64,000 bases of DNA, taken from positions 1-64,000 of the forward strand of contig JAKSIX010000003.1 of assembly GCA_024398595.1 (NCBI GenBank). Reading direction: 5' to 3'. The notes beneath the pieces were generated by a model. The model saw only the letters and a program-made list of their open reading frames with translations, was not told where the DNA came from and did no database searches. Below are positions 8,069 to 47,369 of this stretch, piece after piece; the stretch's first letter is position 1; each line of letters begins with the position of its first letter. This DNA comes from Bacteroidaceae bacterium (lineage in GTDB: Bacteria; Bacteroidota; Bacteroidia; Bacteroidales; Bacteroidaceae). A program made the translations under genes and the position numbers.

Positions 8069-8114
8069 CTGATGTCTGATTAAAGAATGTTGACAGATAC
8101 AGGTAATATTTGGT

Positions 8115-8690: not shown

Positions 8691-9255
8691 TTTTGAGGAA
8701 ATTGGTTATTGTGGAGTACGCTTTCTGGCAGGCCAGCTGCATATCATCGTTTATAATCGTAATATCGAACCGGGGGGCGTATTCAATTTCATAATTGGCT
8801 TTCGCCACTCGTTTTTCAATCATTTCGACCGAATCTGTACCGCGTTTTATGAGCCGTCTGCGCAATTCCTCAACTGAGGGCGGCATGATGAATACAGACA
8901 AAGCCCTGTCTGCAAAAAAATTTTTGATATTGCATCCCCCTTCCACGTCAACATCGAAAACCACGTTGAATCCGGCGGCAAGACGGCTCTCCACCTGCTC
9001 CTTCAGCGTGCCGTAGAAACATCCTTGATACACCTCTTCATATTCCAGAAACTCGCCGGCGGCTATGCGGCGGCGAAATTCGTCCTCAGTTATGAAGATG
9101 TATTCCACTCCGTCGCGTTCCGTGCCGCGCGGTTGTCTGCTGGTGGCTGATACGGAGAATGTGAGCTTAAGCTCCGGGTGGGACAGCAGTGAATTGACGA
9201 TAGTTGACTTGCCTGAGCCTGACGGGGCTGAGAATATGAGACATTTTCCTGCCAT
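8683..9255 (-). CDS. gmk: Guanylate kinase
   Basis: 190-residue kinase converting GMP to GDP. The P-loop APSGSGKST lies near residues 10-18, followed by TSRQPRGTERDGVEYIFI (GMP-binding) and EVYQGCFYGT. The ending has the usual lid and DFDITIINDD region. It lies 10 bases downstream of yicC and overlaps nadD, a frequent Bacteroidota arrangement. Confidence 0.96.
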   Translation of the reverse strand: MAGKCLIFSAPSGSGKSTIVNSLLSHPELKLTFSVSATSRQPRGTERDGVEYIFITEDEFRRRIAAGEFLEYEEVYQGCFYGTLKEQVESRLAAGFNVVFDVDVEGGCNIKNFFADRALSVFIMPPSVEELRRRLIKRGTDSVEMIEKRVAKANYEIEYAPRFDITIINDDMQLACQKAYSTITNFLKNE

Positions 9256-9265
9256 GGACTTTTGA

Positions 9266-23600: not shown

Positions 23601-26600
23601 AGAACGGGTTCCCAGTGCGTTGTTGCGGACACCAATCATTATGGCCCTGACGTTACCGATGGACGGGTTTCCTATGATGCTGATTCTGTTCTCCGGATGT
23701 TCCGGGTCATAGTCGGAGTATATTTGTCCGATGCTTGTCCCTGACCCGTATGTGTTGGCTTCTCTGTTGCGCTTGTTCTTTACGGCTGTGAATACGCCGA
23801 AAGGAACATCCAACATGTTCTCATCGGGCCATACTTTCCTGCGCTCGCTGTCGCTGGCCCCATCATAGTATCCGGGTGGCGTTACTTTCAGAGGAATCTC
23901 ATATTCATAATAATTGCTGGTGTAGTCGGTACCTATTCTTATGAACATTGACATTTCTCCATTTTCAATGCCTTGGATGTCCGCTTCCAAAGCTTCTGCG
24001 TGGGCGAACATCTGCATACGCTCGTATTTGCGCAGGTCAAGGGCGGATTTCCTGTATATGCCGCGTGCATCACCTGCATGCAGTTCCATTACCTTAAGGC
24101 TCATTGACTGCTCATTATCCTGTATGAGCTGTGTCTGGCTCGGGTCAAGCACTCTTGTTATGCCTGGCGGTACTACATAGTTGACAGGATGCCGGTCTCC
24201 GTTTTCCTCTATGTTGACAGATGCCGCTGTCATTGTTCCGGACAGCGATGCCACTTTCGTGGATGGATTGCTGATAGGGGACTCGTAGTTGCGCCACTGG
24301 CTTGTCATAAGTTCCAGTGTTCCGAAACGCAGATGTACTTCTTCATTGAATCCGGTCAGGTACATTCTCATGAAGCGGATTGAACTGAAATCACTGATAC
24401 CGCCTACGGCTTTGTCGTGCTGGTCAATGGGCACGCGGAAGCAATACCAGGTAACGGTCTCTGTCTTGTCGTTGCGTAGCTTGACCTGCACTTCGCGCTT
24501 GTCGGCGATGAAATTTGAACCTACGTTCATATCTTTCGGACGCAGGGAGATATGATAGGGGAAATATCTCTCATATTCATCCATCGTATAGTCATTGTTG
24601 ATGTCCTCTACATCCGGAGTCGTTCTGGCAGATGTGTTGTACTGCTGGTTGGTGTCATCAGCGTTTGGGGAATTGCCTTCTGTTCCGTTATACAGTTTGT
24701 AGCGTTGCAGGATAGGCATACGTGCCTCATCGTAATCGTCTCCCCGGAAATAATGGTAGTTGTCGGCGGCCGGGTCGTCATAGAATGTTTTGTATATTTC
24801 GTCGGGAAGCCATTCCAGTGATTTCAGATATATAGAGTAGGTGGGGAATTCACGCTCCTCTTCGCTGGACAGTCCGTTCAGTCCTACATCCTGTTTGCTG
24901 CGGTTGGCGGCATCGTTGTTGTCGAATGCGTATATGAGGCTTGTCGTGTTGGGAACACGTCCCCATTCCGTGGTCACGTATTTTGTGCTGTCTCCATTGA
25001 CCGGCAGTCCGTTCTCAAAGAATTTCCTGCCATCTTTCAATATATCCTCAGATACCTCACCGAGATTGATGTAGAAGTCCCCTCCTGATGAATTCGGATT
25101 ATATATGAACGGATCCAGAAGCCAGAACTCAATGTATTCTACATTGGCCGTTTCAAAATCCGTGACGGAAAGGCTACGCATAATGCCACCCCAATTGTCT
25201 TTTGTATTCTTCAACTTTCCTTCGCTGTTGATTTCAGGATTCAGGTTATATGGACCGCGTTCATCGGGATAGTATGCCAGATTGAGAATCTGAAGTGTGG
25301 ATGACTCACCTGATACGGTTTCCTTGTTCGGATAGAGCTCACGTTCATAAACCTCTCTGACGTAATGGTTTGACAGCTGCTCAAGGTCGTTCTTGATGTG
25401 TGACGGTGTCAGAGGCGAGTTGCGTCTCGTGAACAGTGGGTCAATAGTGAACCAGTTCAGCAGGGCGCGGTTGTAACCACTCCCGATTCCTGTAGCCTGA
25501 CCTGTTATGGTGGGAGGACGTGATGACAGCGACCATGATCTTGGATTACTGATGTCTATTCCGCTCTCGGCAGCTTCGAAATCGTCTATGTACGATGCGC
25601 TTCCCTGAACCTCGTCCGATACGTCAGAGAAAAGTCTGGCGTATTCTGCATTGAATGTAATCATGGACGGTTCTGTCGCATTGACGAATGGCAGCAGGTC
25701 AAACAGGTTCGTCAGTGCCTGACTTTCTTTCCGCCAGTTGATGTTGAAACCTAACATGGTGTTCACAAGCGGCTCATCGCCCATCGTGACTTTGCTTGTA
25801 AGTGGCTTCTCATTGAGATGCATTACCGTACCGCCTATCTGGAGATTCTTGTTGAAATCGTATTTCCAGTTCATCCCAAGCATCGTCTTGCGCTGCATAC
25901 TGTAATTCGTGTTGCTCTCAAGCGATACGCTGACATTGGTTCCTGCATCGATAATGTTCTGGTTGATTATCGTCACGGTACCAAGGCTGTAGTCTACGAT
26001 ATAATCAACATTCTCAACCAGTGTCTCGCCTCCTGCCGATACTGTGACAGAACCTCGTGGTATGTTGTATGAACCCAGTTCTATCAGGTTGCCTGATGAT
26101 CCGGAGTACTGGCCCTGAAGGAAGAACTTATCCTTGTCGGCAATCCTTTTTGCCGCCGTCATGGTCGTGTCGTACAGCTCCTGAAACACGTACTTATCCG
26201 CTATGTCCTTGTCCTTTATGACTGACCTCAAATGGCTTCCGAAAGGCTCTGCCACAGGGAATATTATGCGTCCGGACGATGATATGACTGTATATCCCTC
26301 AACATAGTCGAACTGACCGTTGGAGTGTGGGGATAACTTGTCGTCAAGACGGTCCAGATTCATTATCTGCAACAGTGTCTGTTGCTTGAGCGATTCTTCA
26401 GGGAGGTAGGTTATACGGCTTCCGACACTGTCTGACGCATAGATAATCTTCATTTTGAAATTCTTCTGCGTGATGTTGCCTCCGCCTACGTAGTATATGT
26501 TCTTCATCATGAGATCCCAAGTGCCGGATGACGGTGTGTTGGAACTTGATTTCAGCAGTTTCAGGTATAATGACTGTCTGGAGTCCGGGATATCGGACGA

Positions 26601-28022
26601 GAACTCTCCAACCTGATATGTCCTGCTGCCGTACGTGAATTCGTATGCCACGGCCAGTACTTCATCAGGCCTCAGTGTGGTTTTCAGTGAAATATAGCCT
26701 AATGTCCGGTTCAGAATGTATTCTGAGGGATCAAGCATCCTTGCATTGGAGATCTTCTCATATTCGATACCGCCCTTCATAATCGGGCTGAGCACTATCT
26801 CCGCAGAGTCCGCATAGCGTGCAGGCCGGTATTGCTCCACTATGGTTCTGTATAGGGTGTTGGAATTGTTGTCCGGTTCCGGTTCGCCGTATTTGAACCA
26901 TTGTCTGTTCGTGAGATGCTCTGCCTCGGCGATGTCTGTGAAGGCCAGTATGTTTCTCGGACTGTCATAACTGCTCTTCTTGTTTGTCACCCATACCTCA
27001 ATTCTGGTAATGTTGACGCCGGATACGACAGAAGGCAGCATTGACATGTTCCTGTCGTAGTTGTCCCTGAAGTAATGCGCCAGAAAGAAGTGCCTGTTCT
27101 CATCGTACGAGCTGGCGTCAATCTCGAAATCAGTCAGCTGTTCCCCGCCTTGCGAGCTGACGGTAGTCGAAGAGGAGTTTTTCTGTGAGACTACTGTCTG
27201 CAGGGAGAGCTTTCCGAACTGGAAGTCGGCGCGGATACCGAACAATGATGTTGCGCCGCTTATGAGCGATGAGTTGCTTGGAAAACTGATGTTTCCCGCC
27301 TCGAACAGTTTGATTATCTCGTCTTCCTTACCTTCGTAGCGCAGACGTATGTTTTTGGTGTCAAAATTGAACGTGGCCTCGGTATTGTAATTCAGGTCCA
27401 TATTGATTTTGTCTCCGACGGTGGCATTTACATTGATGTTAATCTGCTCATCAAAGTCAAAGCCGAAGGTCTTGCGGTTCTGTACAGACAGTGATGGATT
27501 GTCAATGATATTGCCGTCGAATCCTATCTTTACTGAGGCAGCACCGTTAGTCCTGATGCGTACTCCGCCAGGACCGAAAATCTTTTCTGCCGGTCCGAGG
27601 TCGAAATGCATATCCGTGAAGTCAAACTTGTCCTTGCCGGCAGACTGGTATTCAGTCTCGTTCTTCTGACGGAAATATGACTGCATGGACTTGTTCATAC
27701 TCCATTTGTTGTATTCCTCAGGTGTCATCAGCATCGGCACGTCAAGATAACTGTCACCCAGCTTGGTCCCGATTCTGTATGTGTTGCTGCTTTCCTCGTA
27801 TTCGGCCTGCTGTGTCAGGTTTTCCGGATTGCGGAGATCTGCCGTACTGTTGCGGTTCAGGTCTTCACTGTCCTGTGCCGATGTCCTGCTTACGCGATAC
27901 CGTGCTGCACGGAGAGTGTCGTTTGCAGTCTGGGCATAAAGCGGATTATGGCTCCAGAATACACTGGAGCCAATGATGGTTGCAATTGTCAATATGCGGA
28001 GACTTTTCCTCATTCCCGGCAT
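20682..28022 (-). CDS. sprA: T9SS translocon protein SprA (Sov)
   Basis: 2446-residue outer-membrane protein; SprA/Sov forms the very large beta-barrel channel of the type IX secretion system. A signal peptide is present at the N-terminus (ending near PLYAQ). Recognisable SprA blocks include SYLDVPMLMTPEEYNKWSMN near residue 95, RNSPLTPSHIKNDLEQLSNH and SNHYVREVYERELYPNKET in the first part, and DFEAAESGIDISNPRSWSLS. The remainder is a long series of amphipathic strands rich in Tyr, Asn and Ser, ending in FTIKFSLTR. Length matches the 2,300-2,500 residues of the family. It lies 12 bases downstream of ruvA, an adjacency common in Bacteroidota. Intact. Confidence 0.95.
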   Translation of the reverse strand: MPGMRKSLRILTIATIIGSSVFWSHNPLYAQTANDTLRAARYRVSRTSAQDSEDLNRNSTADLRNPENLTQQAEYEESSNTYRIGTKLGDSYLDVPMLMTPEEYNKWSMNKSMQSYFRQKNETEYQSAGKDKFDFTDMHFDLGPAEKIFGPGGVRIRTNGAASVKIGFDGNIIDNPSLSVQNRKTFGFDFDEQININVNATVGDKINMDLNYNTEATFNFDTKNIRLRYEGKEDEIIKLFEAGNISFPSNSSLISGATSLFGIRADFQFGKLSLQTVVSQKNSSSTTVSSQGGEQLTDFEIDASSYDENRHFFLAHYFRDNYDRNMSMLPSVVSGVNITRIEVWVTNKKSSYDSPRNILAFTDIAEAEHLTNRQWFKYGEPEPDNNSNTLYRTIVEQYRPARYADSAEIVLSPIMKGGIEYEKISNARMLDPSEYILNRTLGYISLKTTLRPDEVLAVAYEFTYGSRTYQVGEFSSDIPDSRQSLYLKLLKSSSNTPSSGTWDLMMKNIYYVGGGNITQKNFKMKIIYASDSVGSRITYLPEESLKQQTLLQIMNLDRLDDKLSPHSNGQFDYVEGYTVISSSGRIIFPVAEPFGSHLRSVIKDKDIADKYVFQELYDTTMTAAKRIADKDKFFLQGQYSGSSGNLIELGSYNIPRGSVTVSAGGETLVENVDYIVDYSLGTVTIINQNIIDAGTNVSVSLESNTNYSMQRKTMLGMNWKYDFNKNLQIGGTVMHLNEKPLTSKVTMGDEPLVNTMLGFNINWRKESQALTNLFDLLPFVNATEPSMITFNAEYARLFSDVSDEVQGSASYIDDFEAAESGIDISNPRSWSLSSRPPTITGQATGIGSGYNRALLNWFTIDPLFTRRNSPLTPSHIKNDLEQLSNHYVREVYERELYPNKETVSGESSTLQILNLAYYPDERGPYNLNPEINSEGKLKNTKDNWGGIMRSLSVTDFETANVEYIEFWLLDPFIYNPNSSGGDFYINLGEVSEDILKDGRKFFENGLPVNGDSTKYVTTEWGRVPNTTSLIYAFDNNDAANRSKQDVGLNGLSSEEEREFPTYSIYLKSLEWLPDEIYKTFYDDPAADNYHYFRGDDYDEARMPILQRYKLYNGTEGNSPNADDTNQQYNTSARTTPDVEDINNDYTMDEYERYFPYHISLRPKDMNVGSNFIADKREVQVKLRNDKTETVTWYCFRVPIDQHDKAVGGISDFSSIRFMRMYLTGFNEEVHLRFGTLELMTSQWRNYESPISNPSTKVASLSGTMTAASVNIEENGDRHPVNYVVPPGITRVLDPSQTQLIQDNEQSMSLKVMELHAGDARGIYRKSALDLRKYERMQMFAHAEALEADIQGIENGEMSMFIRIGTDYTSNYYEYEIPLKVTPPGYYDGASDSERRKVWPDENMLDVPFGVFTAVKNKRNREANTYGSGTSIGQIYSDYDPEHPENRISIIGNPSIGNVRAIMIGVRNNALGTRSAEVWVNEFRLVGYESHGGSAAQGDLNVQVSDLATLNVNGNYSTAGFGGLEQGVAERRMDNNYKYSITTNFNAGRFLPEKAKISIPFYYSYTREKTSPRYSPFDTDLELDDVIDSYPDDHSRDSIKNITQEVHTQNNLSISGAKVNISSKKSMPYDPSNFSVSYSRATQNSQGGTTEYEKDLKWKGSLNYSYNSPIEDIRPFKLEKHKSEWYDIIRDLSIAPLPQSITFNTDLSRNYHEYQERDLSNLSGGNSVPVTFSQQFYWNRSLNLRWDIFKSLKLSITTRTQAEIEEPYGAVNKDLYPDQYELWKDSVKASLARLGKPLDYQQDFTATYQVPIDKIPLFDWTNLSATYSAQYSWNRGTTYADGSTFGNIIADRRVFNINGKLNFESLYNKSKYLSDINQRYSGKASRYESAKRESDLKKKYDREVTLLPGETIEVTHNLNTLTPLITTVTQDGTPYKLKYKVKDANTITINTTDSVALRMTVRHNPKRSNNTEKATIKDVGEFSVRFLMLLRNISVTYKNDYSMSLPGFMPGIGKVFGQQNLAAGMAPGLDFAFGFIDDSYLQKAHDRGWLLDNDSVAYNATTNSARDIQIKMTLEPVSGLKIDLNASWTMSDAKRIQYMYAGMPQTRTGTFNMTTISIGSAFESRNASDEYYSATFERFRNNLDIVQSRLEQRYRDSRYPQQSTRPGQPYDPANGGVGKYSTEVMVPAFLATYSGKDASTSSLDLFPSIFSILPNWSVTYNGLAKIDFFKNNFKSFNLTHAYKSVYSTGTYNTYSTYMEYMDGIGFIQDISTGNPIPSSMYDISSVSINESFSPLVGVNMTMNNGVTAKVEIRKTRVMNLSMAAIQMSETTSDDIVVGAGYKIVNLKMLGAHPGSGKNKVSNDLNMNCDISYRNQSAICRNIANTSTQATSGNKAVKVALSADYTYSKFLTLNFYYNFQSNFPLVSTSSFPTSTHDCGFTIKFSLTR

Positions 28023-34074: not shown

Positions 34075-34692
34075 CTATTCGTTAAAGAAGTCCATATCCA
34101 TACCTGCCTCGGCAAGAGAGTCCGGGAGTTCTTCCACAGCCTCTTCTCCATTACCGGCCACGATAGTCAGCGTGGCTCCTTCCGGAATATAATCCCCGGC
34201 GGCTATTGTATCGCCGTTATATATCACTTTATATACCCAGTCCTTTTCTCCCGGTATATATTCCGGCTCGGTCAGCACGAATCCTGCTCCTGTCAGTTTT
34301 GACTCCGCAGCCCGTAGGGAACTGTTGTCCGCGACATCGGGGAGAGCTACGGTCGGAATCCTGCCGGAATTCAGGGTAAGATAAACAATACGCCCCTCTT
34401 TTACTCCGGAACCGGCTTTTGGTATCTGTTCGATTACGGCACCTTCCGCCAATCCTGCATTGTATCGGTATTCGCTGATTTCATACCTCAGTCCGCAGCC
34501 TGTCAGATTCTGCGAAGCCATATCTATGCTGAGTCCTGACACATCAGGCACGGTGATATATTGTCCGTGTCTGGTGTAGCCGTCCATCCATTTCAGCAGC
34601 ACCACTATCAGAATGGCGATTATTGCTGCCATAATTCCAAGGTTGATTAGAAGTCGTACCCACCATGGATTCCTACTGTTATTCTCTTTCAT
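34075..34692 (-). CDS. PASTA-domain membrane protein
   Basis: 205 residues. A short N-terminus, one membrane segment at about 14-37 (LLINLGIMAAIIAILIVVLL), then tandem PASTA repeats (QYITVPDVSGLSIDMASQNL, AVIEQIPKAGSGVKEGRIVY, TVALPDVADNSSLRAAESKL). PASTA domains bind peptidoglycan fragments or beta-lactams in other proteins; no kinase or penicillin-binding domain is attached here. The ending is acidic. The -7 box TACTTTTG at 34713-34720 fixes the start at 34692 instead of the upstream in-frame ATG. First gene of PASTA-rluD-ddl-acyltransferase. Confidence 0.9.
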   Translation of the reverse strand: MKENNSRNPWWVRLLINLGIMAAIIAILIVVLLKWMDGYTRHGQYITVPDVSGLSIDMASQNLTGCGLRYEISEYRYNAGLAEGAVIEQIPKAGSGVKEGRIVYLTLNSGRIPTVALPDVADNSSLRAAESKLTGAGFVLTEPEYIPGEKDWVYKVIYNGDTIAAGDYIPEGATLTIVAGNGEEAVEELPDSLAEAGMDMDFFNE

Positions 34693-34813: not shown

Positions 34814-36361
34814 TTAACGGCTTCCGCCTGCCCACCAGACATTTTCGGTATATACGTAATACCCGTCACCGAATGCTTTCTGAACGTATGGATTAGATGA
34901 AGTATCATCAGTACCATAACCAGCTCTCAGAGGGAATTTACCGGCATTTAGGAATGAGTAAACGTCATTATCCTGAGACTTCAGACGACGTACGTCGTTA
35001 TAAGTCTCGGTTGATTCACCATTTGCACCCCACATGGCAATATACTTCTGAATCAGAACAATTGAATACTTGTCATTATCATCAGCCGCTGCGTATTTAC
35101 CGGCAATACTTGCTGAGTAAGCTTCAATTTCTGAATCAGGTACAATGCCTGTATCTTCAATGCCTCCGTAGATTAGCACTGACGGTGCGTTGTTTGCGGC
35201 AACGACATTTTCATTGAAGTTGTAAAGGCCTGCTTCGATACCTTCTTTCAGTGCGTCTGTAGCATCCTGACCTAATGCAACCTGGGCTTCAGCCTTGATG
35301 AACATTAACTCATGGTAACTGAGCAGATTGACATCAGCAAGCTCTGAGAAGAAGAAGACATCGTAAGGATAGAATGCCTGACACTGATCAGTTGTACCGT
35401 TAGTAACGATTCTTTCTCCTGCTTCCTCAGCACTCATAGCATACCAATCGGAACCATCCTCATATGCATGGTTGATGCGCGGGTCATTGAGTTCCTTCAA
35501 TTTGTTATACATGCTCTTACTTGAACAGATACCATCGCGGCTCCACTGGAAGTCAAACAGAGGGTTGCAGTTGCTTGCATCGTAAACATTCAGACTTGCT
35601 TCCTCATCTGCGCTTTCAAATGAATTGTCAGCGAACTCAATAATCTTTGCGTAATCAGCGTCCTTGTCTGCTGAACGATTTATAAGTCGCATTGTGTAAC
35701 GTGCCTTCAGGCCGAACGCAAACTTCATCCATGATTCTGCATCTCCATTGTAAATGAAGTCGCTTGCACCAACTGTGTTGGTCGGGTCCTCTGCAAGAAG
35801 TTCAATAGCGTTATCCAGCAGACCGAAAATATCTTTGTAGATGTTTTCCTGTGTGTCCAGGTCGGGATTAGGAAAATTCAAATAGTCGCCTACCTGTGAA
35901 AACGGGGTGTTTCCGAAAACATCTGTTACAACAGCTGCGTTGTAGGCTAGCATAATCTCACCTATGGCAAGAGCCAAGTCGTCGCCGTCTTCGGAACCAC
36001 CTTGCGAGCACTTGTTTACAATGATTTTTGCATTCCTGATGTTCTCGTAAATCGTTGACCAGTTGTTATTGTATGTAGATGCTGCAATAATCTGGTTGCC
36101 TCTGTGCTCAGCATTGTGAAGCTGGTTGTGACAACCTTCCCAATGCTCGACATAAGCACCGAAGTACGTGTTGAGGTCTCCACCTACAACATCCTGAGCG
36201 GTACGCAGCTCAAGATCCGGAATGATGAATTTCGCGTTGGCATCAGTCGAGTGATTGTAATCACGGTTGATGTCATCCATATACTTTTCAGAACAAGCTG
36301 CAAAAGAGAGAGCTGCTATTGCCAATAAAGCACTTTTTGCGAAAATATTATTTGTTTTCAT
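34814..36361 (-). CDS. SusD/RagB-like outer-membrane lipoprotein (left locus)
   Basis: 515-residue surface lipoprotein that forms the lid of a SusC channel and binds the nutrient. Lipobox SFAAC (Cys23). The N-terminus (CSEKYMDDINRDYNHSTDAN, with AKFIIPDLELRTAQDVVGGD) and the helical WSTIYENIRNAKIIVNKC fit SusD-like proteins of the SusD_2 type. The C-terminus has the usual helix with KYIAMWGANGESTETYNDVR. It follows the left susC by 12 bases. No glycosidase lies near, so the substrate is unknown; peptides or small molecules are as likely as glycans. It is not an obvious close relative of the right-locus SusD. Confidence 0.92.
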   Translation of the reverse strand: MKTNNIFAKSALLAIAALSFAACSEKYMDDINRDYNHSTDANAKFIIPDLELRTAQDVVGGDLNTYFGAYVEHWEGCHNQLHNAEHRGNQIIAASTYNNNWSTIYENIRNAKIIVNKCSQGGSEDGDDLALAIGEIMLAYNAAVVTDVFGNTPFSQVGDYLNFPNPDLDTQENIYKDIFGLLDNAIELLAEDPTNTVGASDFIYNGDAESWMKFAFGLKARYTMRLINRSADKDADYAKIIEFADNSFESADEEASLNVYDASNCNPLFDFQWSRDGICSSKSMYNKLKELNDPRINHAYEDGSDWYAMSAEEAGERIVTNGTTDQCQAFYPYDVFFFSELADVNLLSYHELMFIKAEAQVALGQDATDALKEGIEAGLYNFNENVVAANNAPSVLIYGGIEDTGIVPDSEIEAYSASIAGKYAAADDNDKYSIVLIQKYIAMWGANGESTETYNDVRRLKSQDNDVYSFLNAGKFPLRAGYGTDDTSSNPYVQKAFGDGYYVYTENVWWAGGSR

Positions 36362-36373
36362 ATTATTCCCTCC

Positions 36374-39300
36374 TTAGAAATTAAATGTTAAACCTGCACC
36401 GAAACTTGTAGTACTCGGAAGAGAAAATCTCTCGAAACCACCGGACATGTTGTTGTTGCCCTGGGTTGATTCAGGATCGTATCCCTTTGTTCCGGAATAG
36501 AGGAGAATGTTACGTGCGAATACGTTAGCTGTCAGACCAAACTTTGCCTTGTTGATAATGTTGTAGCTGAGAGCTATTTCACGCAACTTAAAGTATGATG
36601 CATCTGTAACGGCAGCTTCACTGATATCACTGATAGCGCTGAGATAAGCCTGTGCATCTGCACCGGTGAATTCAATGTCGTTCTCGGCATAGCCTATTAC
36701 ATTACCTTCTTCATCAAATACCTGTTTTACAGACTCACCGCGATCGAAGATGAAGCTGTCAGCTTCTCTCAGATCGGCTGAATACTGGGTAACACCGTAA
36801 TAGTCAAGTGTTGTGGATGTCCCGAAGTATGAGTAACCGCCCTTCTTCCAGTCAAACACTACATTCAGATTCAGCTTTTTCCATCTTAGAGCTGTATTGA
36901 AGCCCATCTGGAAGTCTGGAGAAACCTGACCCAGAACCTTGTCTGAACCTGCCATCGGCAGACCTTTTTCGTCAACGATGATCTTGCCTTCATCGTTGCG
37001 AGCGTATGAAGTACCATAGATGACAGGGTACTTGTCACCGATGCCTGCACGTACCTGAGGATCTACGAATCCGCCCAGCATAATGCTCTCAACACCGTCA
37101 GCAAGCTCGTCAACGTAGTTGTCAATCTTAGTGAAGTTAGCTCCGATGCTCCATTCCCAGTCCTTTGTCTGAACAGGAATAAACTCGATGCTTGCTTCAT
37201 GAGCGTTTGTATGCATCCTGCCACCGTTTGTAACCTTCTGAGCGTAACCGGTTGAAGAAGGCATTGGAATAGCGAAAATCTGATCCTTGATGTTTTGACG
37301 TGAGTAGGTGTAGTTGAATGTGATTCTCCCTTCGAAGAATGCCAGATCAAGACCGAACTCATAGGACTTGGTGTTCTGTGGTTTCAGGTTAGGATCGTAG
37401 ATTGTTGAACTTGGAGTATATGAGCTGACAGTTCCAATCGGGAACATTACAGGTGTACCGCTTGAAAAACCTCCGCCATAACTGGGAGTGGTGTAATAGG
37501 AGGCACGGTATGTACCGGCCTGTCCGACCTCTGCGTAAGAAGCTCTTACCTTTCCGAAAGTAAGAACTTTGTTCTGCAGCGGTTCAAGTTCTGTAAACAC
37601 AAAGCCTGCAGAGACTGACGGGTAAATGAATGTTCTGTTGCCGTTCGGCATGGAAGAAACTCTGTCAATTCGACTGCTGGCATTCAGGAAGAGCATGTTC
37701 TTGTAGTCTGCCGAAATGTTCAGGAAGTTACCGAAAGTCAGGTTCTTTCCTATGCCAGATCCGCCAAGGTATGTTGTAACATTACTGAGGCTGTTGAATC
37801 CACCATAGTTGAAATTTGCACCGTAACTTTCTACAGCCTTATAGTTTGAATAAACGATTTCGTTTCCGTACAGAGCTCCGAAATTCCAGTTGTCATTAAT
37901 CTTCCATGTGTAGTTCGCTGTGAGCAGAGAGTTCACTTCATTGCTTGTGTATGTATTTTCATCTATCTCACCAGTGCCGTTGGAATGACCATATCCCCAG
38001 ATGTCTGTGTAAATAGTAGAGTATGCATCCTCTCCCAACTGATATTTGACAACCAGATTGTGTTTGCCTGCAGTACCGAAGTTTGTATGGAAGTCTATGT
38101 AGGCATTACCGAAGAAACGTTGTGACTTTTCCTTGTGCTCATTGTTGGCCGCCGACCATAGAGCTGCATCGAAACCGGAGGTGCTACGATATGTATTCTG
38201 AGTGTAAGGGTCTCCGGCAACGTGATAAGGAATACCCACAAAGTCGTATGATGGAGGACAGCCGTAAACAGTTGCTATTACACCATCGTTGGCACCTGTA
38301 GCTTTCTTCAGTTCGGACATAACGAAGTTTGCGGAGAAACCCATGTTGAAATGCTTTGAAAGCTCGGTGTCGGCAGCCATTCTTGCGTTGTAGCGGTCGA
38401 GACCGGTCTCAGGAACAATACCTTTAGATGTGGAGTTACCCATAGAGAATATGAAACTTCCTTTGTCATTGTTCTTTGCAACGCTCAGAGAGTTGTTCCA
38501 TGTGCTACCTGTGTTGAAATAGTTACCTGCATTGTCGTAAGCAGTCGGGTATGCCCATGGGTCGATTCCTGCGAGCTCTCTCTGTCTCACATAGTACATA
38601 CCCTCATGTTTGCCGTATGCCTGAGTGTACGCATTATCGATATTGCCGCCATAGGAAGGATCATTTGCAAGCTCAGCAATCTTCGGACCCCATGAAGTGG
38701 ATGCTGTAGGATTGAATCTGCCGGATGAACCCTGCGCGTATGTCTTCTGGAAATCAGGAGTGACTGACACCTTATCGAATGACAGGTTTGTTGTGAATGT
38801 CACTCTCGGTGCACCTTTCTGAACTGATGAGCCCTTCTTCGTGGTGATGATGATGACACCGTTGGAAGCACGCATACCGTAGAGTGCGGAAGCAGCCTGA
38901 CCTTTCAGAATGTTGATGCTCTCAATGTCGTTTGGATCAATATCGAGAGCACGGCTTGCATAGTCAGAACCTGTTACGGAGTTACCGGTATCCATATCGG
39001 CTGTAGAGGCGATTGGCATACCGTCAACAACGTATAGCGGGGTGTTGTTCCCGTCGAATGAACGGGAACCGCGGATAGTTATCTTGGCGGATGCACCCGG
39101 CATACCTGATGACGGATTGATGTCAACACCAGTAACTTTACCCTGAAGGGCAGAGCTGAAACTTGAAGCTGCGGCTTGTGTCAATTCGTCAGCCTTGATG
39201 TCCTGAACTGCATAACCGAGGGCTTTCTTCTCCCTGGATATACCCATTGCAGTGATAACTACATCATCGACCTGGATGGATCCAGGAGTCAGAGTAACAT

Positions 39301-39568
39301 TAATGACCTTTCTCCCTTCAACAGGTACTGTGATAGTCTCGTATCCCATGAAGGAAAAAACAAGTAATCCATTTGATGGTGCGGAGATTGAGTAGGCACC
39401 ATCAATGTCGGTAATAGTACCGCCATTAGTTCCCTGAACAGCTACTGCCACACCGATCATCGGACTGTTATCGTCCGCTGCGGTTGCAATACCTGTGACT
39501 TGCACGTTCTGAGCCGAGACAAATCCCGCGCACAAAACAGCAATCAAAGAAAATACAATCTTTCTCAT
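36374..39568 (-). CDS. SusC/RagA-like TonB-dependent transporter (left locus)
   Basis: 1064-residue outer-membrane channel. Signal peptide 1-19 (ending VSAQ), carboxypeptidase-regulatory-like domain about 22-100, TonB box region VDDVVITAMG near 102-111, plug domain with the SusC signature GKVTGVDINPSSGMPGASAK, SFDGNNTPLYVVDGMPIAST and SINILKGQAASALYG, then a 22-strand barrel ending FGAGLTFNF. The first 44 residues are identical to those of the right-locus SusC at 41036, and 170 bp across the leader and start are identical in DNA, forming an inverted repeat. The only good nearby -7 box faces this gene, so it is probably the one switched on in this assembly. Confidence 0.95.
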   Translation of the reverse strand: MRKIVFSLIAVLCAGFVSAQNVQVTGIATAADDNSPMIGVAVAVQGTNGGTITDIDGAYSISAPSNGLLVFSFMGYETITVPVEGRKVINVTLTPGSIQVDDVVITAMGISREKKALGYAVQDIKADELTQAAASSFSSALQGKVTGVDINPSSGMPGASAKITIRGSRSFDGNNTPLYVVDGMPIASTADMDTGNSVTGSDYASRALDIDPNDIESINILKGQAASALYGMRASNGVIIITTKKGSSVQKGAPRVTFTTNLSFDKVSVTPDFQKTYAQGSSGRFNPTASTSWGPKIAELANDPSYGGNIDNAYTQAYGKHEGMYYVRQRELAGIDPWAYPTAYDNAGNYFNTGSTWNNSLSVAKNNDKGSFIFSMGNSTSKGIVPETGLDRYNARMAADTELSKHFNMGFSANFVMSELKKATGANDGVIATVYGCPPSYDFVGIPYHVAGDPYTQNTYRSTSGFDAALWSAANNEHKEKSQRFFGNAYIDFHTNFGTAGKHNLVVKYQLGEDAYSTIYTDIWGYGHSNGTGEIDENTYTSNEVNSLLTANYTWKINDNWNFGALYGNEIVYSNYKAVESYGANFNYGGFNSLSNVTTYLGGSGIGKNLTFGNFLNISADYKNMLFLNASSRIDRVSSMPNGNRTFIYPSVSAGFVFTELEPLQNKVLTFGKVRASYAEVGQAGTYRASYYTTPSYGGGFSSGTPVMFPIGTVSSYTPSSTIYDPNLKPQNTKSYEFGLDLAFFEGRITFNYTYSRQNIKDQIFAIPMPSSTGYAQKVTNGGRMHTNAHEASIEFIPVQTKDWEWSIGANFTKIDNYVDELADGVESIMLGGFVDPQVRAGIGDKYPVIYGTSYARNDEGKIIVDEKGLPMAGSDKVLGQVSPDFQMGFNTALRWKKLNLNVVFDWKKGGYSYFGTSTTLDYYGVTQYSADLREADSFIFDRGESVKQVFDEEGNVIGYAENDIEFTGADAQAYLSAISDISEAAVTDASYFKLREIALSYNIINKAKFGLTANVFARNILLYSGTKGYDPESTQGNNNMSGGFERFSLPSTTSFGAGLTFNF

Positions 39569-39649
39569 AAAAAAACTGTTTGGTTAATTAATATAGTTTC
39601 ATCACGTTTAATTCCAATCTGTTTTGAAAGTTGGGGCGCAACTTTCAAA
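39480..39649 (-). repeat. Left arm of a 170-bp perfect inverted repeat
   Basis: Exact reverse complement of 40955-41124. It covers the first 89 bases of the left susC, the whole 54-base leader and a 27-bp palindromic site at its outer end (39623-39649). The first mismatch towards the gene is at 39479; similarity continues with scattered differences for roughly 200 bp of coding sequence. Confidence 0.95.
39623..39649. other. Left putative recombinase core site
   Basis: A 27-bp near-symmetric site with 11-bp arms (TTTGAAAGTTG and its complement) around an asymmetric 5-bp centre (CGCCC on the minus strand). Identical to 40955-40981. Two inverted arms around a short core is how tyrosine recombinases bind. 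No T run follows on either strand, which disfavours a terminator. Confidence 0.7.
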
Positions 39650-40954
39650 TGACACGTCTTACTGCATCCCCTCATACATTATACGGCGTATCATTCGGCA
39701 AAATTACAAAAAAAGTTAAACAATATTGCCGTTACGTGTAAAAATGGTGCGAAAACCTAAAAAAATATATCAAAATGAATCTTATTGCAACGAATTTTTG
39801 TAAAAATGACCCCTTGCGCTTTATTCAGTTCAGTTTGAAAGCCAGTAAAATCAACAAGTACGGATGTACGTCAATTCAGGTAGAGGCGAAACTGAATCAC
39901 AGAGTAAAACATTATTCAACCCATATAGTTGTATCCCCGGAACAATGGGATTCCAGAAAGCGAATCATCATAGATCATCCACACGCAGCAGAACTTAACG
40001 TTCGATTGAAGGAATGCATTGCATTGTTTGAAACATCTCAGATAGAATTATGGAAGCAGGGACTACCGATATCTATGGAATCAATGGAACAGTATCTGAA
40101 TGGTGGTATGGATTTCATTGAGTATATGGATATGTCAATCAGATCCGGGAATGGCAAAGACAGTACAAAATCAAATCGTCTGACTACGGTAAAGTTACTT
40201 AAACGCTACACTGACAGTTTGGGGATGCACTGTATTACATCCGAATGGCTGCTTGGTTTTCGGCAATGGCTGATTCGACAGCAGATGCATACAAATACAG
40301 TGGCAAAGCACCTGTCTCACATACGTATTTATGTCAACATGGCAATATCGGACGGACTTATGAACGATTGTGGAAATCCGTTCGTTGGATTCAGAATCAG
40401 ATCTGTTCCTTCGTCACATACATACCTTCAGTCTGAGGAACTTATGAAATTGGAACATTACGCCGCAAGCATCAGAGATACCTTTTCCATACAGAGCCAC
40501 TGTCTGGACGCTTTTCTTTTCTGCTGTTATACCGGATTGAGATATTCTGATTTCATCAGTTTGAGTCCCGCAAAATATCATATAGAAGATGGAATATGTT
40601 GGCTCTCATTCATCACAAAGAAGACTGGGACATCCGTAAGAATACCTGTCAGTCTAATGTTTAATGGCAAGGCACTACTTCTTGTCAGTAAATATGAACT
40701 GTACGGCATAAACTTTTATAAAATATCGTCGAATCAGCTTACAGACTTCTACTTGAGGCATATTGCCCATAATGCCGGACTAACAACTTCTATCTCATTT
40801 CATACGGCAAGGCATACAAATGCCACCTTATTAATAAATAAAGGCGTCAGCATAACAACAGTGCAGAGTTTATTGGGCCATACAAGTCTGAGAATGACGG
40901 AAAAATACTGTAAGTTGTTGGAAAGCACCATCATAAGAGAACTGAAACAAGCTT
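39650..40954. mobile_element. Predicted invertible segment carrying its recombinase
   Basis: 1305 bp of unique DNA between the two inverted-repeat arms. It contains 125 bp of AT-rich noncoding DNA at the left and one gene, a tyrosine recombinase, filling the rest; the recombinase stop codon falls in the right core site. Inversion would leave the recombinase whole and swap which SusC gene faces the noncoding end. Structure is seen directly; inversion is inferred. Confidence 0.75.
39699..39706 (-). promoter_or_regulatory. Candidate switching promoter -7 box
   Basis: Minus-strand TAATTTTG, a full TAnnTTTG match, inside the predicted invertible segment and facing the left susC. A TTG lies 14 bases upstream, nearer than the usual 19-21, so the -33 part is weak. 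No comparable box is seen facing right in the segment or inside the repeat arms. Confidence 0.5.
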
Positions 40955-40959
40955 TTTGA
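39775..40959 (+). CDS. Tyrosine site-specific recombinase (predicted DNA invertase)
   Basis: 394-residue phage-integrase-family recombinase of the Bacteroidales type: an N-terminal Arm-type domain (about 15-100), a SAM-like core-binding domain (about 110-205) and a catalytic domain with all expected residues: Arg256 in CYTGLRYSD, Lys282/283 in TKKT, His343 and Arg346 in HTARHT, His369 in LLGH and Tyr378 as nucleophile in EKYCKL. It lies alone between the inverted repeats of two divergent susC genes; the stop codon (40957-40959) is inside the right core site. Codons are more AT-rich than in the neighbours. Context says local DNA inversion rather than integration of a mobile element; there are no transfer, excision or cargo genes. 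Confidence 0.93.
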   Translation: MNLIATNFCKNDPLRFIQFSLKASKINKYGCTSIQVEAKLNHRVKHYSTHIVVSPEQWDSRKRIIIDHPHAAELNVRLKECIALFETSQIELWKQGLPISMESMEQYLNGGMDFIEYMDMSIRSGNGKDSTKSNRLTTVKLLKRYTDSLGMHCITSEWLLGFRQWLIRQQMHTNTVAKHLSHIRIYVNMAISDGLMNDCGNPFVGFRIRSVPSSHTYLQSEELMKLEHYAASIRDTFSIQSHCLDAFLFCCYTGLRYSDFISLSPAKYHIEDGICWLSFITKKTGTSVRIPVSLMFNGKALLLVSKYELYGINFYKISSNQLTDFYLRHIAHNAGLTTSISFHTARHTNATLLINKGVSITTVQSLLGHTSLRMTEKYCKLLESTIIRELKQAF

Positions 40960-40981
40960 AAGTTGCGCCCCAACTTTCAAA
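40955..40981. other. Right putative recombinase core site
   Basis: Same 27-bp site as 39623-39649 in opposite orientation: 11-bp arms TTTGAAAGTTG / CAACTTTCAAA with centre CGCCC. It begins exactly at the edge of the 170-bp repeat and holds the recombinase stop codon. Confidence 0.7.
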
Positions 40982-41124
40982 ACAGATTGGAATTAAACGT
41001 GATGAAACTATATTAATTAACCAAACAGTTTTTTTATGAGAAAGATTGTATTTTCTTTGATTGCTGTTTTGTGCGCGGGATTTGTCTCGGCTCAGAACGT
41101 GCAAGTCACAGGTATTGCAACCGC
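40955..41124 (+). repeat. Right arm of a 170-bp perfect inverted repeat
   Basis: Exact reverse complement of 39480-39649. It covers the core site, the 54-base leader and the first 89 bases of the right susC. Beyond 41124 the two genes differ by two substitutions in the next 10 bases or so, then diverge further. Confidence 0.95.
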
Positions 41125-44100
41125 TGCGGACGACAACAGTCCGATGATCGGTGTGGCAGTAGCCGTGGAGGGGACAGCTGGCGGTACCATTACCGATATT
41201 GACGGTGCGTACTCGATTTCAGCCCCTTCAAACGGGACACTGGTGTTTTCTTTTATGGGTTATGAGACTCTTACTGTTCCTGTAGAAGGCAGAAAGGTCA
41301 TCAATGTAACCTTGACCCCGGGATCTATCGTGGTGGATGATGTGGTTATTACAGCCACTGGTCTGAAGCGTTCAGAAAAAGCTCTGGGTTATGCATCATC
41401 AACAATCAAGTCGGATGAGATTGTCCGTGCACACGCTGCTGATGCTCTTTCAGGTATGGCAGGAAAGGTTGCCGGTCTGCAGATTTCATCTTCCGGCGGT
41501 ACTGGAACTTCCCAGAAAGTTGTTATCCGTGGTTATTCTTCATTGACAGGAAGCAACCAGCCGTTATATGTAATAGACGGTGTTCCAATGTCAAATAGCA
41601 TCCATGGTACTCAGGATCTGAACAACTCAATTGACTTCGGTAACTCGGCAGCTGATATCAACCCGGAGGATATCGAGTCAATCACTGTTTTGAAAGGTGC
41701 TTCTGCTACAGCTCTTTACGGATCACGTGCCGGAAATGGTGCAATCCTTATAACAACCAAGCGCGGACAGCAGAACGAGAAGGTGTCTGTCACTTACGAC
41801 GGTACTTTCCAGGCCAGTACGGTACTGCGTATCCCGCAGCTTCAGAACAAGTTCGGTCAGGGTTGGTATTATTCCGATTATGGATATCTGTTTGAGAACT
41901 ATGCAATGGCTGAGAATGGTTCATGGGGTAACCTGCTTGACGGTCGTACTGTCGAGTGGCGTCCGGGTGCAAACTGGTATGCAGGCGCCGAGCCATCATA
42001 CACAGATTTCTCATATAAGGAGAATTCTCTGAGCAATTTCTACTCAACAGGTTTTGAGGCCAACAACAATATCACGATTTCCGGTGGTTCCAAGAACAGC
42101 GGATTTGTGGCAACATACGGAAATATCTCATCGAACGGTATCCTGCCGGGTACCAACGATTACTACAAGCGTAACAACTTCTCGTTCCGTGGCAATACAA
42201 AGCTGTTCAAGGAGAGAGGCTGGATCAACTATAGTCTTACCTATGTAAACAAGAAGGTACGTAACGGAATGACCGGTCAGGGTGGTAGCGGTTCTGTCAT
42301 ATATCAGGACATTCTCCAGTACCCGGTCAATCTTGATTATGCGGATATGAAGGATTATAACAGCATTTACAACAATGCGGATAACTTCTATACCCCATAC
42401 GCTCAGAACCCGTGGTGGATTCTTGATCACAACTATGCTACCTACGAGGATGACCGCGTATATGGTAACGCAGAGTTTGGAATAGACATTATCAAGGGTC
42501 TGCAGTTCATTACACGTGGAGGTCTTGATGTCACCAACTATCGTGAGTCATACTATAACGATTTGTGGACATTCTCTCCCGGTTCATGGACTGAGGATAT
42601 GGGCGGCTCTCCTGAGAACGGCTCATTCGATGAAGTAAGTGGAGTGTCGAAGCAGTATGATGTGAATTTCCTGCTGAATGCCGATTATAAGCTTGGCAAG
42701 GATTTCTCCCTTCACGGTGGGGCCGGTTTCAATATGTATGAGCGTAACGGATATGCACTTTCCGGTACTCTTTCCGGTCTTGCAGTAGGCAATTGGGCTA
42801 GTTTCAGCAATACAAGCGGTGCAGTTCCGGAAGCAGGTTCTTCTCTGTCAAAGAGACGTCTGGTAGGTCTCTATGCACAGGCTGACCTCGGTTTCCGTGA
42901 TGCTGCCTATCTGACATTCTCTGCCCGTAATGACTGGTCGTCAACTCTTCCAAAGAATGACAACTCATTCTTCTATTGGGGTGTGAACGGTTCAGTAATT
43001 CTGACAGATCTTATCCCTAATATGCAGAACAATGTCCTGAACTTCCTTAAGATTCGCGGAGGCTACGGAAAGACAGGTAATGATGCAGGTACATATCTGA
43101 CTTCGTCATATTATTATCTGGCAAGCGCCAGCGGCGGTTTCGGAAACCTTACATTCCCTCTGAACGGCTTTGCAGGACTTCGCAAGAGTTCACGCATACC
43201 TGCCACTGAGCTGAAACCGGAGATTTCAACTGAGGCTGAGGTAGGTATTGATGCACGTTTCTTTGACAGCCGTCTTACTATAGATCTGGCTTATTACAGC
43301 AAGGAGACCACCAATCAGATTATGACTGCCACGTTGCCTTACGAGTCGGGCTATACATCTGCTGTCCGCAATGTAGGTAGTATCAAGAACAAGGGTATTG
43401 AGCTTACCGTAGGTGTGGTTCCTGTACGTACCAGGAATTTTGAGTGGAATATGCTCTACACATTTACCAAGAACAATAATACTGTCGGTGCTCTTTGGGA
43501 TGATGTTACAGAATATAACATCTATGGTCTTTCAAAAGGTCCGCAGCTTGTCGCTGAGGTAGGTGAGCCTATGGGTGTATGGAAGGATTACAAGATATGC
43601 AAGGTTGAGGATGAGTCAAGTCCGTACAACGGAATGACTATCGTCAATGCTCAGACCGGTTTCCCGACATACGATGCAACCCAGACAGAAATCCTTGGTA
43701 AGGCTGACGCTGACTTCACTATGGGTCTTACAAACAACTTCCGTTACAAGGACTTCTCACTGTCATTCGGCTTGGACTGGCGTCATGGCGGTCTGATGTA
43801 CTCAGCTACAAGTTCAATTGTATATTTCAACGGAAATGCTGAGGCTACAATGTACAATCTGCGTGATCCGTGGGTTGAGCCGAACGCAGTCTATATGGGT
43901 GCTGACGGTCAGTATCACGAGAACAATATTCCGGTCAACAACTATCCTGGATATAACATGAACGGTGAGTGGTATGACAATTACAATTATGTCCGCTATC
44001 GTGACTGTCTTATTGACAAGAGTTATCTGAAACTGCGTGAACTCAGCCTTACATACAATATTCCGAGCAAGGTGATGTCCAAGATCAAATGGCTTCAGGC

Positions 44101-44275: not shown

Positions 44276-45682
44276 ATGAACAGAATTATGAAAAAGTCTT
44301 TATTTATAGCTTTGGCAGCATCACTGGTACTTACTACCGGCTGCCAGAATTGGTTAGATGTAAACGATAACCCTAACTATGTAAGTGATGCTGATGTATC
44401 ACTCCTTATGCCGTCTGCAGAGCTTGCTGTAGCTCACGAGATGGGATTTAATGTTTCATTGTACGGTCATTTCTGGGCACAGTATGTCAATCAGAACAAG
44501 AATACGAACCAGTATTATACCAATATGACATACGATGTCACCAACTCATCATTTACCAGACCATGGCAGAACTTCTATTCTTTTGCACTGCCGACTCTGA
44601 AAGAGGTCATTGAAAAATCTCAGGATGAGAGTCACCAGAATTATCTTCTGCAGGCTCGTACTATGACAGCATATACATATTACGTACTTACCAGTCTTTT
44701 TGAGGATGTGGCATATACTGAGGGATTCCTGACGGAGACCACTACTCCTCATTTTGATAATGGCAGGGAATTTCAGAATAGTCTTGTATCCATGCTTGAG
44801 GAGATTCGTTCAATGGATCCTGAGGCTATTGAGAGTGCTGAGCTGGTAAATAATTCAGCCAAGGGTGATATGATTTTCGGAGGAGACAATGAAGCTTGGA
44901 TGCAGTTTGCCAATACCATTTATCTGAAGGTCCTTATGCGCGAGTTCGATAAGAACAGGGAGCCTATCAAGGAGCTTCTCGCGGAGGATAATTTCCTGGA
45001 AATTGATGCAGCGTTCGACAATTTCGAGGATAAGGCCGACAAGTCCAATCCATTTTACGAGAATGACCGTCGTCAGTTGAATACACAGTTGAATATACGT
45101 GCTTGCACAGATATCTTGAATGTACTCGACGCTGATGATCCACGCCTTGAATATTATTATGAAGGTGGATGCGAAGGTACGGAATATGGAATTACTCCAG
45201 ATCCCAGTGAGTCATCAAGATTGCAGTTGGGTGCAACTGATCCGGTATATTTCTCAACAGTTGATGAGGTTGAATTCCTGAAGGCTGAGGCATACGCCCG
45301 TCTGAACGATGCAGGGGCTGCTCAGGAGGCTTATGAAAATGCCCTGACTGCTGCTTTTGACCGTACTGTAGGCGGAGGCGCTGAAGATTTCATTGGTGAA
45401 GGTGGCGCTTATGAGTTCGTGGAGGGAACGCCGGAACAGATGATTGAGCAGATCATCAATCAGAAGTGGGCTTCAAATGTCCGCGCAATGGCTATTGAGT
45501 CCTGGTTTGATATGAACCGTACAGGTTATCCTGAGCGTGGTAAGACCATTACCGATTACAGTGGCGTACTTGAGCCCGGTCATTATCCATACCGTTTTAT
45601 CTACGCTAAGAATTCTGCTGACTATAACCCGAATTCACCAAAACCAGTGGCAGTTGACGTCAAAATGTGGTGGCATAAGTAA
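44276..45682 (+). CDS. SusD/RagB-like outer-membrane lipoprotein (right locus)
   Basis: 468-residue partner of the right SusC. Lipobox TTGC (Cys23 from the ATG at 44276; Cys19 if translation begins at the ATG at 44288, which is equally plausible). CQNWLDVNDNPNYVSDADVS and LMPSAELAVAHEMGFNVSLY, the TPR-like helices (LLQARTMTAYTYYVLTSLFE) and the late EFLKAEAYARLNDAGAAQEA motif are typical of SusD_2-type proteins. Ligand unknown; no carbohydrate-active enzyme lies near. Confidence 0.92.
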   Translation: MNRIMKKSLFIALAASLVLTTGCQNWLDVNDNPNYVSDADVSLLMPSAELAVAHEMGFNVSLYGHFWAQYVNQNKNTNQYYTNMTYDVTNSSFTRPWQNFYSFALPTLKEVIEKSQDESHQNYLLQARTMTAYTYYVLTSLFEDVAYTEGFLTETTTPHFDNGREFQNSLVSMLEEIRSMDPEAIESAELVNNSAKGDMIFGGDNEAWMQFANTIYLKVLMREFDKNREPIKELLAEDNFLEIDAAFDNFEDKADKSNPFYENDRRQLNTQLNIRACTDILNVLDADDPRLEYYYEGGCEGTEYGITPDPSESSRLQLGATDPVYFSTVDEVEFLKAEAYARLNDAGAAQEAYENALTAAFDRTVGGGAEDFIGEGGAYEFVEGTPEQMIEQIINQKWASNVRAMAIESWFDMNRTGYPERGKTITDYSGVLEPGHYPYRFIYAKNSADYNPNSPKPVAVDVKMWWHK

Positions 45683-45718: not shown

Positions 45719-46330
45719 ATGAAAAATATATTAAGAAATTTGTTGCTGGCCGTTACGGCGGTTACGCTTGCAGTCTCCTGCGAGACATACAAGGTTGATG
45801 AGCCAGGTATGACCGCTGTCAGTGATATTGACGGTAACTGGGTTTGCTTTGGCGTTGACGAGGCAGGTGATAGTACGGTATTCTATCTTGAGATTACCAA
45901 CACTACTTACAATGATCCCGGCAAGGTGTGGGTTACTGTTACAGATATGAACACTGCTACATATCCATATCTTGATGGTGTCCGTTTCCTGGCGAATGTT
46001 GATGGTTTGAACTTCAGCTGCAAGGATGCTGAGACACTTGCTCCGCAGTTTGTATGGAATCCGTATCAGGAGAGGAAATACTATTCATATGAGTGGTATT
46101 TGAGCAGACAGGCTAATTCTCACGTAGGTAAGGCTACAATCGATGGTGGCAAGGTAACACTCAACGCTGTACCTACCGGCGGTAATATGAAAGCCAGCGC
46201 TATTGAACTGACTTATACACGTAGTGATGATGGCGAAGAGTCTCAGACGTGGAAAATCTCAGGTATGAAGAATACCGGTTGGTATGAGGATCTGGCTGAG
46301 TACGCAGATTTTATGAATGAACATTTCTAA
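45719..46330 (+). CDS. Lipid-binding-like surface lipoprotein of the right Sus locus
   Basis: 203 residues. Lipoprotein signal ends AVSC (Cys21). The beta-rich mature part with IDGNWVCFGVDEAGDSTVFY, YSYEWYLSRQANSH and the final ISGMKNTGWYEDLAEYADFM resembles the Lipid_bd family of proteins coded next to SusC/SusD in Bacteroidales. Function is not established. It follows susD by 36 bases and is the last gene of the right locus; the left locus has no counterpart. Confidence 0.8.
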   Translation: MKNILRNLLLAVTAVTLAVSCETYKVDEPGMTAVSDIDGNWVCFGVDEAGDSTVFYLEITNTTYNDPGKVWVTVTDMNTATYPYLDGVRFLANVDGLNFSCKDAETLAPQFVWNPYQERKYYSYEWYLSRQANSHVGKATIDGGKVTLNAVPTGGNMKASAIELTYTRSDDGEESQTWKISGMKNTGWYEDLAEYADFMNEHF

Positions 46331-46732: not shown

Positions 46733-46763
46733 TTTGTCCGTTAGCTCTCAAATACTACTTTTG
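46733..46763 (+). promoter_or_regulatory. Promoter of efp
   Basis: TTTG (46733-46736), 19-base spacer, TACTTTTG (46756-46763). It shows that the in-frame codons before 46803 are not translated. Confidence 0.75.
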
Positions 46764-46802
46764 CGGTTAGGAACAGAATTTATTAATTTAACAGATAGAC
46801 TT

Positions 46803-47369
46803 ATGATTCTTTGTCAAGACATTAAGATCGGAACTTGTATCAATCTGGAGGGCCAGCTGTATTTCTGCATTGACTTCCTGCACGTGAAACCGGGTAAGGG
46901 CAACACTTTCGTACGCACCAAGCTGAAGAATGTTGTCAACGGCCGTGTGCTGGAACGCACATTCCAGATTGGTTTCAAGCTTGAGGATGTCCGCGTGGAG
47001 CGTCGTCCGTACCAGTATCTCTATTCAGACGATATGGGTTATATATTCATGAATCAGGAGGATTTTGAGCAGGTTACTCTGCTTAAGGATCTGATTACAG
47101 GTGTCGATTATCTGAAGGAAGGCGAGATTGTGGATGTGGTCACCAATGCTACTACCGGTGATATCCTTTTTGCAGAACTTCCTGTGAAGGTTACATTGAA
47201 GGTCGTATATACAGAGCCAGGCTTGAAGGGCGATACTGCTACAAACGCCACCAAACCTGCCAAGGTTGAGACCGGCTGCGAGGTCAGAGTGCCTTTGTTT
47301 ATCAACGAGGGCGAGCTGATAGAGGTCGATACCCGCGACGGCTCTTATCAGGGCAGGGTGAAGGCCTGA
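46803..47369 (+). CDS. efp: Elongation factor P
   Basis: 188-residue factor that helps ribosomes through polyproline. The conserved tip [17 protein letters not shown] includes the Lys expected at the P-site tRNA; the second and third OB domains follow ([34 protein letters not shown], then [20 protein letters not shown]). The ATG at 46803 matches the family N-terminus and lies 39 bases after a consensus promoter. Length normal. Confidence 0.96.

Follow-up and report, generated by a model that had tools for sequence, protein, structure and literature searches.

A putative invertible promoter cassette between two complete, divergent SusC/SusD operons of a Bacteroidaceae bacterium

Genes and inverted repeats at the locus

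The window analyzed in the present study is a 64,000-nucleotide stretch at the start of one contig of the draft genome (2.2 Mb, 95 contigs) of a gut-type Bacteroidaceae bacterium. It contains two divergent SusC/SusD operons with one tyrosine recombinase gene between them (Table 1). Both susC_L and susC_R are complete SusC/RagA genes (TIGR04056), and each is followed by a susD gene. The region between the operons is bounded by two inverted repeats, the left copy of which is the exact reverse complement of the right copy (170/170 identity). At a lower identity of 88%, the repeat pair extends to 408 bp (39242-39649 and 40955-41362). The earlier note on this DNA described perfect 170-bp inverted repeats around a single recombinase ORF, each entering the start of a different outward-facing susC gene, and a unique segment in which the recombinase gene is accompanied only by 125 noncoding bp that carry a left-facing -7 box; all of these features were reproduced. 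The last 5 nt of the recombinase gene, including its TGA codon, lie within the right repeat. Since only two copies of the leader exist in the 2.2-Mb genome, we rejected the idea that the repeat is a general susC leader of this organism.

The two SusC proteins are 35% identical overall. However, their first 105 residues are 95% identical and their bodies only 30%. When each was compared with its relatives elsewhere, the first 105 residues and the bodies both showed 61-73% identity. The contrast between the N-terminal domain and the body indicates that, within this genome, the leader changes in concert with the N-terminal domain and separately from the bodies. The effect was weaker in two related loci of the same genus (G034 and G036, described below). 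The right-hand pair matched 5fq6 (susC_R against BT2264, E 3e-197; susD_R against BT2263, E 2e-34), a solved complex that was reportedly peptide-loaded.

Elsewhere in the window, a 2446-aa SprA-type secretion protein (20682-28022, minus strand) and a 1234-aa C25-family (gingipain-like) peptidase (2638-6342, plus strand) are encoded, which suggests that this organism has a type IX secretion system.

Table 1. Features of the locus in window coordinates
Feature	Position	Strand	Remarks
PASTA-domain gene	34075..34692	-	Left border of the hotspot
susD_L (SusD-like_2)	34814..36361	-	Similar to 3fdh
susC_L, 1064 aa	36374..39568	-	Putative ON side in the assembled orientation; 65% to the sole-occupant susC of G007/G026
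Left 170-bp perfect repeat copy	39480..39649		5'UTR and start of susC_L; 88% extension to 39242
Left putative crossover site, TTTTGAAAGTTGGGGCGCAACTTTCAAA	39622..39649		AGT-N9-ACT core; genome-unique except for its partner; homologous sites in relatives
Putative invertible segment, 1305 bp	39650..40954		Recombinase gene and 125 bp with one putative outward promoter; between the 170-bp repeats
Bacteroides-type -7 box, TAATTTTG (CAAAATTA)	39699..39706	-	Faces susC_L; sole outward box in the segment
Tyrosine recombinase, 394 aa	39775..40959	+	Catalytic RKHRHY; identified by Pfam and alignment
Right 170-bp perfect repeat copy	40955..41124		5'UTR and start of susC_R; 88% extension to 41362
Right putative crossover site	40955..40982		Inverted copy of the left site
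susC_R, 1077 aa	41036..44269	+	BT2264-like; 72% to the sole-occupant susC of G001
susD_R (SusD-like_2)	44276..45682	+	BT2263-like
Lipoprotein of the lipid-binding putative hydrolase family (PF12888)	45719..46330	+	Third gene of the right operon; also in G001
efp (elongation factor P)	46734..47369	+	Right border of the hotspot

Putative crossover sites and the recombinase family

Each repeat terminates inward together with a 28-bp near-palindrome whose core is asymmetric, a feature absent from the earlier note. Sequence identity thus stops exactly where a plausible recombinase site does, and the near-palindrome is likely to be the crossover site. Its AGT core starts 75 bp upstream of both susC start codons. 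Perfect matches to GAAAGTTG-N5-CAACTTTC were found in the 2.2-Mb genome only at the two ends of the segment. This layout far exceeds what chance would produce, because the leader is present only twice in the genome and the site pattern is perfect only at these two ends. No target in trans was detected genome-wide at one mismatch or fewer; the lone two-mismatch site elsewhere in the genome, at 37811, was not above the control. A scan of the viral collection with the crossover site gave no match. The Tsr0667 site of B. fragilis reportedly follows the consensus AGTYYYN4GDACT. The window site (AGTTGGGGCGCAACT) does not fit this consensus on either strand, and 14 of the 16 distinct coding-type (in-susC) sites of the relatives do. 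In the mRNA of either susC gene, the palindrome would also fold into an 11-bp hairpin within the 5'UTR, with a possible effect on mRNA stability or translation. Despite this hairpin, the overall folding of the leader RNA was no better than that of shuffled sequences (z -1.0).

The recombinase contains Arm-DNA-bind_5, Phage_int_SAM_5, and Phage_integrase domains (Pfam), and its catalytic RKHRHY set is intact: R256, K283, H343, R346, H369, and Y378 are invariant in 19 aligned proteins. Recombinases with approximately 40% identity (threshold E<=1e-50) were found in 44 of 301 sampled Bacteroidaceae genomes. A profile search of genome_contigs with the recombinase alignment, in which 80 named loci from Bacteroides, Phocaeicola, Mediterranea, and others were retained, was also performed; a single-protein query gave no match there. 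In 51 of 83 loci, the 5' side of the recombinase gene adjoins a full-length divergent susC gene, while the susC gene on the 3' side lacks approximately the first 50-70 residues. Several other loci among the 83 reached a contig edge or had no susC match. In those of the usual loci that yielded a matched pair of sites, the pair is AGT-N9-ACT; one site lies 206-218 bp into the frame of the 5'-side susC gene, and the other is at the equivalent point of the truncated 3'-side gene.

The window shares the general plan of this family, namely, the three-domain recombinase located between divergent susC genes, a full-length, presumably expressed susC gene next to its 5' side, and an inverted AGT-N9-ACT pair around it. 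Since the relatives are mostly located between divergent susC genes across Bacteroidaceae, a recombinase inside the unit is the norm of the family. The earlier note regarded this position as the trait that sets the locus apart, which does not hold because the same layout is usual in Bacteroidaceae and is also found in a published B. thetaiotaomicron case. Its statement that the locus differs from the known shufflons was correct, for another reason. The window combines a putative 5'UTR crossover with two complete genes, whereas in the usual loci the crossover is near codon 70 and the partner is truncated; the shufflon arrangement of a crossover within the susC frame and an N-terminally truncated silent partner was not found in the window.

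Placement in the 5'UTR was observed in four further loci (G034, G036, G015, and L099). G034 and G036 are of the same genus and have the locus at the same chromosomal place as the window, although the second gene of G036 is on another contig. The window recombinase is only approximately 40% identical to their enzymes. L099 (RUG13423) carries a recombinase of a different clade, and its right-hand susC gene may be damaged because it reads in two ORFs. The G015 locus (L037, G015:C41, reverse complement, approximately 1500-2950) belongs to the same genus and is at another chromosomal place. Its inverted repeat measures no more than 17 bp (GTTGTGCCGGAACTAAC), which suggests that a long repeat is not needed, and a remnant leader (ATGAGAAAGATTCTCTTGATGATG...) precedes an unrelated susC gene. 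The recombinase tree, in which the window enzyme is on a long branch of unsure placement, requires at least two changes to the 5'UTR type.

Some variants were noted. L113 (Bacteroidaceae HV4-6-C5C, 7600-9830) was rejected as a 5'UTR type because the site falls within the coding frame, at approximately codon 33. It has an intermediate form, with the site just past the signal peptide and the gene bearing the start codon on the 3' side of the recombinase gene, the reverse of the usual polarity. B. salyersiae (L101/L102, approximately 11 kb apart) and B. fragilis Q1F2 (L058/L061) each carry two identical recombinase copies in opposite orientations in one genome, which could permit larger inversions. 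Recombinases on IMG/VR contigs labelled as viral (L216-L243), found by an alignment scan, are only distant relatives (approximately 33-40% identity); these contigs may be bacterial sequences binned as virus.

Promoter asymmetry and the PASTA-efp hotspot

The locus occupies a hotspot between a PASTA-domain gene, beside rluD-like and ddl-like genes, and efp-radC. We surveyed this place in 37 genomes of the window's genus, three of which were left unresolved. The hotspot was empty in 11 genomes, with the border genes approximately 0.43-0.56 kb apart, and held a single susCD pair in 18 (15 with one operon, and three in which the contig breaks off after one susCD). One genome (G033) has two divergent operons without a recombinase, and three (the window, G034, and G036) have two operons and a recombinase. 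The hotspot of G025 (G025:C9:35671-60121, L203/L204) contains an insert of 24 kb in which neither susC nor susD was matched.

For every receptor encoded at the three loci with a recombinase, a closer relative is the sole occupant elsewhere. Besides the relatives of the window receptors listed in Table 1, the PASTA-side susC of G034 and the efp-side susC of G036 are 84-91% identical to those of G006/G014/G004, the efp-side susC of G034 is 77% identical to that of G029, and the PASTA-side susC of G036 is 88-89% identical to those of G018/G031/G009.

For hotspot susC genes that lack a recombinase and could be read, the -7 motif TAnnTTTG was present within 300 bp upstream in 19/19 (the masked region of G005 and the uncertain start of G011 were left out), and 0.2-0.6 occurrences per region are expected by chance. 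Among the 5'UTR-type loci, a -7 box was located on the 5' side of the recombinase gene in 5/5 and on its 3' side in 0/5; in the window, no such box was found in the 300 bp upstream of susC_R. A Fisher test on the -7 boxes (0/4 vs. 24/24) gave p = 5e-5. At the motif level, the segment has the arrangement of an inverton, with an outward -7 box and none for the other side. The two operons of G033 (L202, G033:C4, 8173-14822) each have their own -7 box, and this locus is a natural non-switching control.

No promoter for the recombinase gene was recognized, and no terminator-like site reading from the recombinase gene toward the 3'-side susC gene was found. With no terminator between them, recombinase transcripts may enter susC_R, and the OFF operon may leak.

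With the flanks as the reference, both the window and G034 have the 3' end of the recombinase gene directed toward efp, whereas it is directed toward the PASTA-domain gene in G036, the one other species on which this difference in orientation rests. It fits a natural inversion. However, the same allele class is on the 5' side of the recombinase gene in G034 and, across a contig break, presumably in G036; therefore, inversion of the whole locus is also possible. Two contigs of G036 terminate within its repeat, possibly because the population was mixed or because the repeat simply caused a break.

Proposed switch and comparison with known systems

We consider it probable, from the arrangement of the sequence, that the locus is an either/or switch in which the recombinase inverts its own gene together with a single promoter at two sites and thereby selects one SusC/D operon. 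The recombinase would act on the two inverted AGT-N9-ACT sites, and crossover would invert the 1.3-kb segment with its gene and the single outward promoter, presumably in a reversible manner. In the assembled orientation, the promoter would drive susC_L-susD_L through the shared 5'UTR; after inversion, it would drive susC_R-susD_R and the lipoprotein gene through the identical 5'UTR. The OFF operon would be left behind the 3' end of the recombinase gene without a promoter, such that only one operon is expressed. Such a switch would operate in the manner of the Tsr0667/BT2267-type SusC/D inversion loci of Bacteroidaceae, to which the locus is related. The crossover appears to have moved from approximately codon 70 to the 5'UTR, and a crossover in the 5'UTR would select whole genes rather than join bodies to one leader.

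This switch is supported by the intact recombinase, the paired sites, the one-sided promoter motif in five loci, and the opposite orientation of G036. It is also supported by the published homologous locus BT2263-2269, with the invertase BT2267 and reciprocal expression (PMC6080902). The inverting switch proposed in the earlier note is, thus, well supported by comparative anatomy, leaving aside the special status it gave to the internal recombinase. The departure of the site from the reported Tsr0667 consensus and the low identity to the G034 and G036 enzymes argue against the switch.

The single fixed susCD pairs in 18/37 genomes are compatible with a former switch that is now locked, with susC_L constitutive and susC_R a silent allele store. 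We regard this as unlikely because the recombinase retains all of its catalytic residues, the two sites are identical, both susC and susD genes are open, and the leader has been kept perfectly identical over 170 bp. General homologous recombination at the 170-bp repeats may instead cause the inversion, with the recombinase being incidental or acting elsewhere. A perfect identity of 170 bp is long enough for RecA-dependent exchange, and the leader and N-terminal domain evolve in concert, which demonstrates that homologous sequences are exchanged or converted at this place. However, the G015 locus, although built on the same design, has a shared repeat of only 17 bp; the repeat of the window stops precisely at the palindromic site; members of the recombinase family are consistently located between susC genes throughout Bacteroidaceae; and the genome has no other good site. 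These points make this route very improbable.

The G033 locus, in which two divergent operons occur at this hotspot with no need for a recombinase, and the draft state of the genome may be taken to indicate that there is no switch, and that a mobile-element or relic recombinase lies between independent divergent operons or the repeats are an assembly artefact. The -7 boxes of G033 are present in both operons, whereas those of the switch loci are on one side only, and the same layout with the same flanks was independently assembled in G034. We rejected a mobile element because the repeats run into susC instead of forming element ends and the position of this recombinase family between susC genes is conserved. 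We consider it highly implausible that the locus is not a switch.

An inverting unit that contains its recombinase is not new. The novelty is in the 5'UTR crossover with a predicted choice of whole operons, its repeated origin, and its place in an allele hotspot. We tentatively speculate that, in a few species, the cassette captured two alleles of the hotspot and turned a polymorphism between species into phase variation within the cell, that the leader and N-terminus serve as a conversion platform, and that this type arose at least twice from codon-70 shufflons. If so, the hotspot of this genus normally holds no SusC/D or a single one from several unrelated allele classes, and the leader, with the N-terminal domain, provides a constant platform for expression, while the receptor bodies downstream of it can be swapped. 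One family of SusC/D invertases may make two types of switch depending only on the position of the crossover site: near codon 70, bodies are joined to one leader; in the 5'UTR, whole receptor operons are chosen. Phase variation would then be tied to a hotspot of receptor-allele turnover, at which related alleles may be compared as fixed and switched forms across species. This makes the purpose of receptor switching, such as peptide uptake, phage evasion, or antigen variation, directly testable. Nutrient uptake is plausible and, from the likeness to BT2263/2264, peptides are plausibly likelier than glycans as the substrate of the right-hand pair; the function could equally be variation of an antigen or a phage receptor.

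The closest known system is that of B. thetaiotaomicron, in which BT2268/BT2269 are flanked by the reverse-oriented BT2264/BT2263 with the invertase homologue BT2267 (PMC6080902). The two pairs showed reciprocal changes in expression in vivo, promoter inversion was given as a possible cause, and the published mechanism is only a proposal (PMC6080902). As in the window, two SusC/D pairs face apart with a tyrosine invertase between them, and the right-hand pair of the window is homologous to BT2264/BT2263. In the Bacteroides loci that we examined, among which B. thetaiotaomicron is not included, the crossover is in susC with a truncated partner, in contrast to the 5'UTR crossover and complete genes of the window.

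Tsr0667 runs the SusC/D shufflons of B. fragilis (cited in PMC4747536) and reportedly also simple inversions at other loci. It reportedly performs multi-site shuffling and acts in trans at 12 regions, whereas the window has one site pair in cis. A tyrosine recombinase, SusC/D targets, and the AGT-N9-ACT frame are common to both systems. They differ in that the window site does not follow the consensus reported for Tsr0667 and has no other good counterpart in its genome.

Invertible promoters of the Mpi/Tsr19 type at capsule and surface loci of Bacteroides are promoter segments without an invertase that turn one operon ON or OFF. The Tsr19-type segments have been described in these terms (PMC4747536). 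An outward promoter flips in the 5' region in these systems, as proposed for the window; however, the window has the invertase inside the segment, and two operons would alternate. The Hin segment of Salmonella would work in a similar manner to the window switch because the invertase gene and an outward promoter are both inside the inverting segment. Hin is an unrelated serine recombinase, and the alternative flagellin is controlled via a repressor, whereas in the window a second operon would itself face the promoter.
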